Assembly (NCBI GenBank): GCA_016934215.1
Contig: JAFGTE010000006.1
Location: 1-34,881 of the forward strand
Reading direction: 5' to 3'
DNA length: 34,881 nucleotides
Origin: Candidatus Peregrinibacteria bacterium
GTDB lineage: Bacteria > Patescibacteriota > Gracilibacteria > UM-FILTER-43-11
A program made the translations under genes and the position numbers. The first letter of the stretch is position 1, and each line of letters opens with the position of its first letter. The notes under the pieces are model-generated. The model made no database searches. It saw nothing but the letters and a program-made list of their open reading frames with translations, and was not told the DNA's origin. Of the stretch, positions 4,447-24,510 are shown in pieces.

Positions 4447-4873
4447 TGGTGGAGATGCCCGGAGTCGAACCGGGGTCCGAAAATGAAGTCATAAAACTTC
4501 TACAATCTTAGTTTGTTTGAAATTTTCGTCTAGGTCATTAAAACAAACAAAAGCAACCATAGCTTATCCGGGTTGATTTTTCGTCGTGTCATCCTACGGA
4601 GGCGTATGACACGCTTATCCTGCTAAATAACGCCTCACCAGCTCAGCAGGTGTCGGCAGGTGAGACGAGGTCACGAATTGGTGACCGTATTAGATGCTTA
4701 AGCGTAAGCAAATGCTGGGACCGGAGTCTTAGCAAGACGCTTAGCTGAAGCAGCTAAAGATCTATAAGTATTAGCACTTATAATGCGCTGGACGAGTTAG
4801 CAGGCAGACAGCGCGATGCCTGGATTGCGATTTAATGGCTTGAACCATTTTCGTCAAAACCAAATACATCCCC
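4447..4873 (-). ncRNA. ssrA: tmRNA (transfer-messenger RNA)
   Basis: The minus strand begins GGGGATGTATTTGGTTTTGA and ends with a tRNA-like half: T stem CCCCGG/CCGGGC region with loop TTCGACT, acceptor ATCTCC, then ACCA. The ends GGGGAT and ATCTCC pair (one G-U), forming the alanine-tRNA-like domain. In between lie the tag reading frame (4775-4698) and pseudoknot-like stems such as GTGTCATACG...GTAGGATGACAC. The molecule loads stalled ribosomes, adds a degradation tag and frees them. CCA is encoded. A T-rich stretch follows the CCA end, so the T arm plus T run may end transcription. Confidence 0.95.
4698..4775 (-). other. tmRNA tag-peptide reading frame (25 codons)
   Basis: Reading from a likely resume codon GCT at 4775 gives Ala-Asn-Thr-Tyr-Arg-Ser-Leu-Ala-Ala-Ser and, after further basic residues, ends PVPAFAYA followed by TAA at 4700-4698. 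The 25-residue length is at the long end for tags and the composition is basic rather than acidic. The resume position is inferred from the Ala-Asn start and the stop; it is not proven. Confidence 0.6.
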
Positions 4874-4893
4874 ACTTGTCAAAGAGCGTGATT

Positions 4894-22014: not shown

Positions 22015-23043
22015 ATGAGTAAAATTCATTTAGAGACACCGGCAGGGAATAGTGAAATTTTAATCCAAAGAAATGGCTTGGATGAAGCCAGAGAATGGAT
22101 CGAACAAAAACACCCCGGCAGACGGCTGGCTATTATCACTGACTCAAACCTGAATGAGCATTACCGTGAAAGGCTGGCGGAGGTATTCAGAGATGCGATT
22201 GTGCTGGTTGTAGCCGCCGGTGAAGATACTAAGAATCCTTTAGATGCTGCTAATTTAGTGAAAGAACTCAGTAAGCATGAATTTGATAAAGGGGATGTAG
22301 TGACTGGCTTCGGAGGAGGGATGGTGACGGATCTGGCGGGTTTTGTGGCTTCGACTTATAAACGCGGCGCTCATTACACGGCCATTCCGACCTCATTGCT
22401 GGCGATGGTGGATGCGGCCATTGGCGGTAAAACAGGGGTCAACGTAGCCGCTAAAAATGATATGGGAACTTTTTATTTGGCTGAGCATGTGCTACTGGAT
22501 GCGGAACTTTTGAAGACGCTTCCAAAACGTGAATTTAATTCGGGCATGGCAGAAGTGATTAAATACGCGGCCACCCTGGATGCTTCTTTGGCAAAGGATC
22601 TGATGCGGGATGAACTGGACCTTGATACGATCCTTGAAAAGAGTGCCCGCGCCAAAGTAAGTGTTGTACAGCAGGATGTTAAAGAAGATAGGCTGAGGCA
22701 GGTTCTGAATTTTGGACATACCTTTGGTCATGCGATTGAATCACAATCGGATTATGCCTTGCTTCATGGGGAAGCAATTAGTATCGGCATGATACAGGCC
22801 AACAAAGTTGCACAAAAACTGGGGAAGCAACAGCCTGAAACAGACCAGATGATCAGAAGACTGCTTGAAAGATTCGAACTGCCCATCGAACTGCCGAAGG
22901 ACATGACCGTAGAGGATTTATTGCCATATATCGTTCGCGACAAAAAGAAATCCGGTAAGGAAATTTCATTTATTATTGCACCGGAGATGGGAAAATATGA
23001 GATGCTGAAGCTAACCCCGGAAGAATTGATGAAAATGGGCTAA
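22015..23043 (+). CDS. aroB: 3-dehydroquinate synthase
   Basis: A 342-residue NAD- and metal-dependent enzyme converting DAHP to 3-dehydroquinate, the second shikimate step. Seen: the NAD-binding GFGGGMVTDLAGF (98-110), the phosphate and substrate site around IPTSLLAMVDAAIGGKTGVN (124-143), and metal ligands E180 (AEVIKYA), H235 (GHTFGHAIE) and H251 (LHGEAISIG). Length is normal. It follows aroF by 3 bases in the attenuator-controlled operon. Later shikimate genes are not in the window; a foreign-looking gene follows instead. Confidence 0.96.
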   Translation: MSKIHLETPAGNSEILIQRNGLDEAREWIEQKHPGRRLAIITDSNLNEHYRERLAEVFRDAIVLVVAAGEDTKNPLDAANLVKELSKHEFDKGDVVTGFGGGMVTDLAGFVASTYKRGAHYTAIPTSLLAMVDAAIGGKTGVNVAAKNDMGTFYLAEHVLLDAELLKTLPKREFNSGMAEVIKYAATLDASLAKDLMRDELDLDTILEKSARAKVSVVQQDVKEDRLRQVLNFGHTFGHAIESQSDYALLHGEAISIGMIQANKVAQKLGKQQPETDQMIRRLLERFELPIELPKDMTVEDLLPYIVRDKKKSGKEISFIIAPEMGKYEMLKLTPEELMKMG

Positions 23044-23093
23044 TTTTTTAAGAGTGTTAACAGAGAGGTATTGAAGCAAGTTCTTTTGTTTGC

Positions 23094-23122
23094 TTGACTT
23101 TTAGTATTAATTATGTTTAAAT
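23094..23122 (+). promoter_or_regulatory. Promoter for the GC-rich gene
   Basis: TTGACT (23094-23099), a 17-base spacer and TTAAAT (23117-23122). The expected start near 23129 gives a leader of about 133 bases that contains the hairpin at 23169-23220. Confidence 0.45.
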
Positions 23123-23168
23123 ATACTCCGCTCTTTTTCATTTTCGGTGTTCACAAAAGACTCGTGGT

Positions 23169-23220
23169 CAGCACCCTGCTGCCGCATAAATGACTGATCA
23201 TTTTGTGCGGCGTGGTGCTG
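23169..23220 (+). promoter_or_regulatory. Long three-part hairpin in the 5' leader
   Basis: Three nested stems share one axis: CAGCACC (23169-23175) with GGTGCTG (23214-23220), CCGCA (23182-23186) with TGCGG (23206-23210), and AAATGA (23188-23193) with TCATTT (23198-23203) around a CTGA loop. That is 18 pairs in 52 bases. It does not match a riboswitch family known to me. Confidence 0.5.
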
Positions 23221-23261
23221 TACAGGTGATCTTTCGTGAACTAAGAGGAGAAACGAAACCG

Positions 23262-23807
23262 ATGCGTTACACATATCTCATCCTGGCCTTCGTGGCCTTC
23301 ACTCTGTTCTCCGGGCTTGCGTTCGCGCAGCCCGCCAATCCCTGGGGCGGTCCGTCCAAGCGTTCAACACCGGCGGCAGACGCCACCGATGACGCTGATG
23401 ACATCGACGTGGTCCCGGCTCCTGACTTCACCCCCCTGCCGCGCAAGGCCGTCTACCCGAAGCGCGACTGCGACTTCGGCAAGGACGACGAGGGACACTG
23501 CCGGACCTTCGAACAGGTGGTGACCGAAACGGCCGAGGCGAAGGCCAGGGCCGAGGCACTGGAGCGGGAGAATAGCCTGCTCTGGAGTCTCGTCATGGTC
23601 ATCAGCCTCATCCTGCTGGTGGGGACTGCGTACGAGTTCATCCAGAAGGAGCGGCGGCTGCGGAACGCCGAGGAACGGCGTTTCGTGCGTACTGTGAAGG
23701 GGCATCTCATCCCGAAGCGAGACGCGGACGGCAACCCCGTACGCGACGCGAACGGCTATCTCGTACCCGTGACCAAGGAAGCCACAGAGGACGGTACCGA
23801 CAAGTAG
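23262..23807 (+). CDS. GC-rich gene for an exported, membrane-anchored protein of unknown function
   Basis: A 181-residue protein with a signal peptide (about 1-22, ending GLAFAQ), an Asp/Pro-rich stretch (about 30-65), a segment with two Cys (RDCDFGKDDEGHC), a short coiled coil (about 85-105), one transmembrane segment (about 106-127) and a basic C-terminal part with a small repeat, RDADGNPV then RDANGYLV. Two sampled lines are 67-68 percent GC against about 42 percent in aroB. The ATG at 23262 is preferred over the in-frame ATG at 23190, which lies inside the leader hairpin; GAGGAG (23245-23250) precedes it. I recognise no family. Codon use points to transfer from a GC-rich donor. Confidence 0.75.
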   Translation: MRYTYLILAFVAFTLFSGLAFAQPANPWGGPSKRSTPAADATDDADDIDVVPAPDFTPLPRKAVYPKRDCDFGKDDEGHCRTFEQVVTETAEAKARAEALERENSLLWSLVMVISLILLVGTAYEFIQKERRLRNAEERRFVRTVKGHLIPKRDADGNPVRDANGYLVPVTKEATEDGTDK

Positions 23808-23848
23808 ACCTTCGGCCTCCCCACCCTGATCACCCCGACCACGAACGA

Positions 23849-23876
23849 CCCGCTGACTTCACATCGGCGGGTTTTT
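23849..23876 (+). terminator. Strong intrinsic terminator of the GC-rich gene
   Basis: CCCGCTGA (23849-23856), loop CTTCACA, TCGGCGGG (23864-23871; one G-U pair) and five T. It lies 41 bases after the stop and just before the rdgB -10 box. Confidence 0.85.
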
Positions 23877-23883
23877 CGTATGC

Positions 23884-23889
23884 TAAAAT
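23884..23889 (+). promoter_or_regulatory. Extended -10 box for rdgB implying a leaderless message
   Basis: TAAAAT preceded by TGC ends exactly 6 bases before the ATG at 23896, so transcription would start at the start codon. The -35 region falls inside the upstream terminator and has no match. Confidence 0.45.
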
Positions 23890-23895
23890 AAAGCC

Positions 23896-24510
23896 ATGCA
23901 AAAAATACTGATTGCCACGCACAACTTTGGGAAGTATAAGGAACTGATGGAGGTTTTAGAAGATCTGCCTTTTAAATTTATATCGCTGAATGATGAGAAG
24001 ATTACGGAGGATGTGGAAGAAGGCGGAGACAGTTTTGAGGCAAATGCGATTATCAAGGCTGAATTTTTCAGCCGACTGACAGGCCTGCCGGCGATTGCGG
24101 ATGATTCAGGAATTCATGTAGACGCTATTAATAATGAACTGGGGGTCAAAACCCGTCGCTGGGGGGCCGGCGTAAGTGCCAGTGACGAGGAATGGCTGGC
24201 CCACTTTCTGGACAGGATGGCCAACGAAAAAAACCGGAGGGCTGAATTTGTGGCCTGCATTGCTTTTGCGCATCCCGGAGCCGAAACTTTGACATTCATG
24301 GGGGAGTGCGTTGGACAGATTCTGGACAGTCCGAAGACAGAAATTGAACATGGGATTCCCCTTTCATCGGTCTTTTTACCCGATGGTAAAAATACAGTTT
24401 ATTCAGCCATGAGTAAAAAAGAAAAGAATGAAATTTCACACCGCGGAATTGCCATTAAAAAGTGTTACGATTACCTGCTGGAAAAATTTACAGATGAATT
24501 ACAGCGATGA
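23896..24510 (+). CDS. rdgB: Non-canonical purine NTP pyrophosphatase (RdgB/HAM1 family)
   Basis: A 204-residue enzyme that hydrolyses dITP, ITP and XTP to monophosphates and so keeps deaminated purines out of DNA and RNA. Family signatures: THNFGKYKEL near the start (the T/S-x-N-x-x-K motif), FEANAIIKAEFFSRLTGLPAIADDSGIHVDA (in full length, about 48-78, holding the catalytic DDSG) and SHRGIAIKK near the end (SHR motif). The length is typical. The start matches the family and a -10 box lies just before it. Its last 17 bases overlap the start of the Smr-domain gene, so the two are an operon. Confidence 0.95.
   Translation: MQKILIATHNFGKYKELMEVLEDLPFKFISLNDEKITEDVEEGGDSFEANAIIKAEFFSRLTGLPAIADDSGIHVDAINNELGVKTRRWGAGVSASDEEWLAHFLDRMANEKNRRAEFVACIAFAHPGAETLTFMGECVGQILDSPKTEIEHGIPLSSVFLPDGKNTVYSAMSKKEKNEISHRGIAIKKCYDYLLEKFTDELQR

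Follow-up and report, generated by a model that had tools for sequence, protein, structure and literature searches.

Why does a single gene of markedly high GC content stand between aroB and rdgB in the tiny genome of an uncultured Candidatus Peregrinibacteria, and does its composition betray a foreign origin? An earlier note, made from sequence alone, had described positions 23094-23876 of a 34,881-nucleotide stretch of DNA (hereafter the window; contig C4 of a 1.01-Mb, 34-contig genome, here G000) as a GC-rich, self-contained transcription unit, and had proposed that it was either recently acquired as a cassette or under special codon selection, with a leader hairpin that may be regulatory. 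We recomputed each of these properties and then used comparisons within and between genomes to ask whether the unit is singular. The observation itself proved to be correct. The interpretation is only partly supported: the readings as a self-contained unit, special codon selection and a possibly regulatory leader point the right way, whereas recent acquisition is not supported.

The coding sequence (23262-23807, forward strand, as are all parts of the unit) has a GC content of 0.639 and a third-position GC content (GC3) of 0.81, against 0.457 for aroB (rather than the approximately 42% given in the note) and 0.450 for rdgB, whose named relatives lie in Candidatus Peregrinibacteria, Gracilibacteria and Patescibacteria MAGs. 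Windows of 500 bases over the gene reach 0.65, compared with a genome mean of 0.451 (s.d. 0.043; 99.9th percentile 0.657). The unit begins with a sigma-70-like promoter at 23094-23122, composed of TTGACT (23094-23099), a 17-nt spacer and TTAAAT (23117-23122), in a region (23060-23129) of only 0.29 GC, with the predicted transcription start site (TSS) at about 23129-23130. A boxA-like sequence, CGCTCTTTTTCAT (23129-23141), shows three mismatches to YGYTCTTTRAMAA and is a weak, tentative match. The structured leader of about 132 nt (23130-23261; 0.48 GC) contains the hairpin described in the note (23169-23220), enclosed within a longer outer stem (23149-23241) formed by GTTCACAAAAG (23149-23159) and CTTTCGTGAAC (23231-23241). 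A Shine-Dalgarno (SD) site, AGAGGAG, lies at 23244-23250, and the unit ends in a terminator at 23849-23876, a GC-rich hairpin followed by T5; the trailer and terminator together have a GC content of 0.63. A search with Rfam covariance models recovered only chance-level matches in 22900-24100 (best E 0.8), and in the window as a whole only tmRNA and tRNA passed the gathering cut-offs, indicating that the leader matches no known RNA family.

The gene codes for a predicted exported protein of 181 residues with a signal peptide, a disordered linker, a long helix with one membrane span and a short C-terminal repeat (KRDADGNPV / RDANGYLVPV). The N-terminal signal and the single span are supported by the sequence and by an AlphaFold model computed from the single sequence (helices 2-19 and 83-147; mean pLDDT 68). 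Searches for Pfam and PHROG families returned no match, and no relatives were recovered among phages, viral contigs or the genome collection by the searches available, the sole phage hit (E 0.07) being a chance match. A stretch resembling the repeat, LVPMRDIEGNPILVNGRMQP, is however also seen in another GC-rich membrane protein with C-terminal zinc ribbons (L025 12526-13602; labels with C and L denote our contigs and stretches of sequence, followed by positions).

To determine whether the unit is unique we called genes across the entire genome using a simple codon-based procedure. Genome-wide GC3 is 0.465 (s.d. 0.078) with a clear tail of about a dozen complete genes above 0.65-0.70, and the class comprises roughly a dozen to fifteen members. 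Nearly all of these are single genes lodged between housekeeping genes and code for exported, lipoprotein-like or membrane proteins. G002, a genome of the same genus, has the same kind of set, and across the units of the two genomes membrane or exported features occur in 23 of 25 units against 317 of 861 other genes (p 2e-8). These unit lists rest on our own gene calls and GC3 cut-offs, with start codons chosen partly by the presence of an SD, and the orthologous units of G000 and G002 are not independent. Two members (L020 9705-10457 and L021 2-988) look like outer-membrane beta-barrels (for the first, PF13505 at E 9e-4, below its cut-off; a C-terminal phenylalanine in both), in a lineage thought to lack an outer membrane. 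Small single-span GC-rich genes for proteins of 58-64 residues with strong SDs and short leaders (L070 2196-2432, L194 8973-9167 and L110 4376-4561) resemble small membrane toxins in size only; those of G002 and of G001, another same-genus genome, lie about 3 kb downstream of rdgB. Contigs C1 and C2 both end inside the same GC-rich, glycine-repeat gene (L009 12888-13309 and L010 12473-13054), whose leader has a boxA-like sequence and an outer stem like that of G002 L184:11464; the repeats probably broke the assembly.

If the unit were a recent arrival, it should be absent from, or differ in composition at, the same place in relatives, a condition that the earlier note had itself set. We found that aroB and rdgB are adjacent in most of the family, with a gap of 12-31 bp in G002, G010 and G011, about 730 bp in G001 and about 855 bp in G000, whereas in G003 and G007, which represent other genera, a gap of about 710 bp holds unrelated units in the opposite orientation. 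The G001 insert is a homologous unit with elevated GC (CDS 0.58), an aligned promoter (TTGACA-17-CAAAAT), a 76%-identical leader and a similar terminator region, although the proteins are barely alignable; thus the leader is more conserved than the protein. As G001 is an independent assembly, a chimeric origin of the locus is unlikely. Other GC-rich units (C13:9705, C15:6645 and C17:2822) occupy syntenic positions in G002 and remain GC-rich at 32-50% protein identity, where flanking genes are mostly 75-90% identical and the genome-wide median orthologue identity is 79%. Hence gain and loss do occur at this site, but the composition appears to belong to a native class of transcripts rather than to a foreign donor. 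The neighboring aroB (22015-23043) is itself only 51-59% identical to copies in relatives, including those of the same genus, although rdgB is 87-90% identical within the genus, and it appears to have been displaced or to evolve unusually fast.

An alternative is that exported-protein genes from a GC-rich, SD-using donor, for instance a Myxococcota-like host, were inserted singly into intergenic sites and have not yet ameliorated. The high GC3, the SD use, codon preferences opposite to those of the genome's ribosomal proteins, lipoprotein and beta-barrel-like products unusual for CPR and the variable aroB-rdgB site are compatible with this proposal. However, we consider it unlikely given the syntenic GC-rich orthologs at low protein identity, the leader shared with G001, the native GC of both a paralog and a syntenic ortholog of one unit protein, and the absence of relatives in the phages, viral contigs and named genomes searched. 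Foreign origin alone would explain GC but not the RNA features described below. Further, the presence of a promoter and terminator within each unit is atypical of integron gene cassettes.

We next examined translation initiation. SD-like 5-mers precede 38 of 888 other genes under a relaxed start rule (about 4%, with a chance level of 3.5%) but 12 of the 15 GC-rich genes with known upstream sequence (p 9e-14), thereby confirming genome-wide the rarity of SD sites that the note gives for the window. When only the first start and 4-mers are considered, the counts are 9 of 15 against 24 of 843. In G002, SDs were found in 9 of 12 units with internal starts allowed, against 6 of 817 other genes at the first start, a comparison that uses unequal start rules. 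The 16S 3' end of G002 carries an intact anti-SD, so the SD can work. Ribosomal-protein genes prefer the opposite codons (for example, TAC 0.27 against 0.90), which led us to reject ordinary high-expression codon bias.

The transcripts differ along their whole length. Averaged over units, GC is 0.20 in the 20 nt before the TSS and 0.44-0.57 after it, stays at about 0.56 for 60 nt beyond the stop and then falls to 0.36-0.39. Comparison with shuffles that preserve the protein, codon counts and dinucleotides showed that the coding regions are more folded than expected, with a mean z of -3.0 in G000 (14 genes) and -2.5 in G002 (13 genes), against 0.04 for 24 native genes and -0.8 for 20 genes of the GC-rich phage D3112. 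The window gene is a weak member by this measure (z -1.3).

Examination of the 3' UTRs revealed that the sequence just after the stop is complementary to the leader of the same unit: AGCTCGATCAC/GTGATCGAGCT in C13:9705, ACTCGCCAACCC/GGGTTGGCGAGT in C9:25558, GTTCATAGGAGG/CCTCCTATGAAC in C17:11844 (over the SD), CCTGCTCATT/AATGAGCAGG in C14:98022 and GATTCCCCCG/CGGGGGAATC in C2:9895. With respect to the longest perfect helix, 12 of 28 units exceed the 95th and 8 the 99th percentile of swapped pairs, while native genes equal their swaps. In minimum free energy (MFE) folds of full transcripts, 73% of 26 units have at least 11 leader-trailer pairs, against 15% with swapped trailers (p 1e-8) and 20% of native genes (p 5e-6), a result that holds in each genome and for three trailer lengths. 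C13:9705 and its G002 ortholog retain the helix with changes on both arms (GCTCGATCAC/GTGATCGAGC against CCCGACCACAC/GTGTGGTCGGG), and units with the same features in G003 and G007 have 8- and 11-bp helices. A few GC-rich genes (C14:1432, C17:2822 and L183:19216) nevertheless show little end pairing, and G-U pairs are not enriched over A-C mismatches in the helices, so this line of evidence for pairing at the RNA level was negative.

In the window unit the proposed helix would join leader arm 1, TCGTGGTC (23162-23169), with GACCACGA (23837-23844), leader arm 2, GGTGATC (23225-23231), with GATCACC (23828-23834), and the SD region with CCTCCCC (23816-23822), leaving the inner leader hairpin between the two arms. 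Of these, CGTGGTC of arm 1 and GTGATC of arm 2 are identical in G001, whose trailer has the counterpart GATCACCCCAACCACG. The MFE fold with a 45-nt trailer shows 23 pairs, but the leader's own fold wins when the terminator and a longer leader are included, and the duplex is not significant alone. Thus, the window unit is a plausible rather than a proven member with regard to end pairing.

The complementary arms could also be viewed at the DNA level, as inverted repeats bounding an exchangeable or invertible coding segment. The helix cores are mostly perfect 10-12 bp inverted repeats without G-U enrichment, the insertion site is variable, and at one syntenic locus (G000 C14:98022 and G002 L167:15476) the leaders are alike while the proteins are not alignable. 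However, the repeats differ from unit to unit, so there is no shared recombinase or transposase site, the leader arms are interrupted by hairpins where the trailer arms are contiguous, and this view does not explain the folded coding regions, the SD or boxA. We accordingly regard it as very unlikely.

A further possibility is a fold-back translation switch, in which the 3' UTR sequesters the SD of the full-length message until processing releases it. Beyond the 5'-3' pairing itself, the trailer covers or abuts the SD in some units (C13:9705, C17:11844, L135:8631 and possibly the window unit), and small hairpins surround several SDs. Yet the SD is mostly paired already in the nascent leader, and its mean unpaired fraction does not change on average between nascent (0.31) and full-length RNA (0.28; p 0.49), the local value being equal to the shuffled control. 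No strong antisense promoter was found in the window unit, weak ones were found in only three units, and the proteins are mostly 110-716 residues long rather than short toxins. A switch of this kind is possible in single units but improbable as the general mechanism.

Sequences with at most one mismatch to boxA, the NusB/S10 site, precede 7 of 31 units and none of 205 native genes with long upstream gaps (p 4e-7). An exact boxA, CGCTCTTTGACAA (4876-4888), also lies directly upstream of the 5' end of the window's tmRNA (4447-4888, reverse strand). The genome codes for NusB, and an rnc-like (RNase III) gene follows nusB directly (C11 24085-25166). Rho was not found in this 96%-complete genome; hence we rejected Rho antagonism as the role of boxA, and a role in RNA folding or processing is more likely.

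One gene exists in both formats, with all features changing together. C17:11844 is GC-rich, SD-bearing, boxA-bearing and end-paired in G000, whereas its syntenic G002 ortholog (41-44% identical) has a GC3 of 0.45, no SD, a 26-nt AT-rich leader, no excess structure and no end pairing. Its G000 paralog, C21:4970, is also native in GC3 and lacks an SD. Composition thus follows the RNA format rather than gene ancestry, although replacement of the gene by a relative's copy cannot be excluded.

Taken together, the reading we favor, with only moderate confidence, is that the unit belongs to a native class of Peregrinibacterial transcripts in which an AT-rich promoter drives one GC-rich, end-closed and globally folded message, of a format like that of pre-rRNA, for a fast-evolving exported or membrane protein, translated from an SD that nearly all other genes of the genome lack. 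Our calculations, made entirely from MAG sequence, establish the class, its SD use, the GC boundaries at transcript ends, the excess coding-region structure, leader-trailer complementarity in most units, boxA in a subset, and synteny with rapid protein divergence. Message stability, the involvement of RNase III (including any cleavage of the helix) or NusB, and a function at the cell envelope are inferences. In this view, folding during transcription would close the message on itself and shield its ends from exonucleases, or offer an RNase III processing site, giving a long-lived mRNA translated through its SD; high GC and C/G-ending codons would follow from selection for RNA structure and not from foreign origin. 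A bolder and rather doubtful extension is that Peregrinibacteria keep a second format of gene expression reserved for a fast-changing secretome, with individual genes moving in and out of it by changing GC3, SD, leader and trailer together; in its strongest form, such RNAs would be built to persist outside normal mRNA turnover, for instance in dormant or host-seeking cells, or even for use in another cell.

Bacterial mRNAs closed by 5'-3' pairing are, to our knowledge, known as single cases or toxin families, and a search of open-licence literature found no report of such a class in Patescibacteria. A class-wide version in a reduced CPR genome would show that whole-message folding can be a selected expression strategy strong enough to move GC content by 15-20 points. 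It would also offer a sequence-only marker (GC3, SD and leader-trailer complementarity) for the host-facing secretome of uncultured episymbionts, and would warn that GC outliers in such genomes are not automatically horizontal transfers or assembly errors.

Among known systems, the hypervariable gene of a Gracilibacterium (BD1-5; PMC6851277) likewise concerns a diversifying protein in a related CPR lineage, but is a case of repeat hypervariation in one gene, and we saw no structured-mRNA class described there. The hok/Sok and AapA/IsoA type I toxin mRNAs (PMC6733600) share a compact mRNA with long-distance pairing between its ends, which we observe at the level of the class, as well as hydrophobic products and hairpins near the SD. 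However, they code for short hydrophobic toxins (under about 60 residues), whereas the proteins here are much larger, no antisense RNA was found, SD accessibility is not generally switched and there are many units per genome; we therefore do not assign the window unit to them. In the icaR mRNA of Staphylococcus aureus (PMC3868564) the 3' UTR pairs with its own 5' UTR, as it does here, in some units over the SD; but icaR is a single regulator mRNA, in contrast to a class of envelope genes with folded coding regions and GC enrichment. Finally, in E. coli pre-rRNA the leader-trailer helix is essential and boxA helps (PMC10250234). The units described here differ from it in being single protein-coding messages with SD sites, in having boxA in only a subset of leaders, and in that RNase III processing is merely inferred, but they resemble it in the complementary 5' and 3' flanks predicted to close a GC-rich, globally folded RNA, in the boxA of some leaders, although that of the window unit is only a weak match, and in the adjacency of nusB and an rnc-like gene in this genome.
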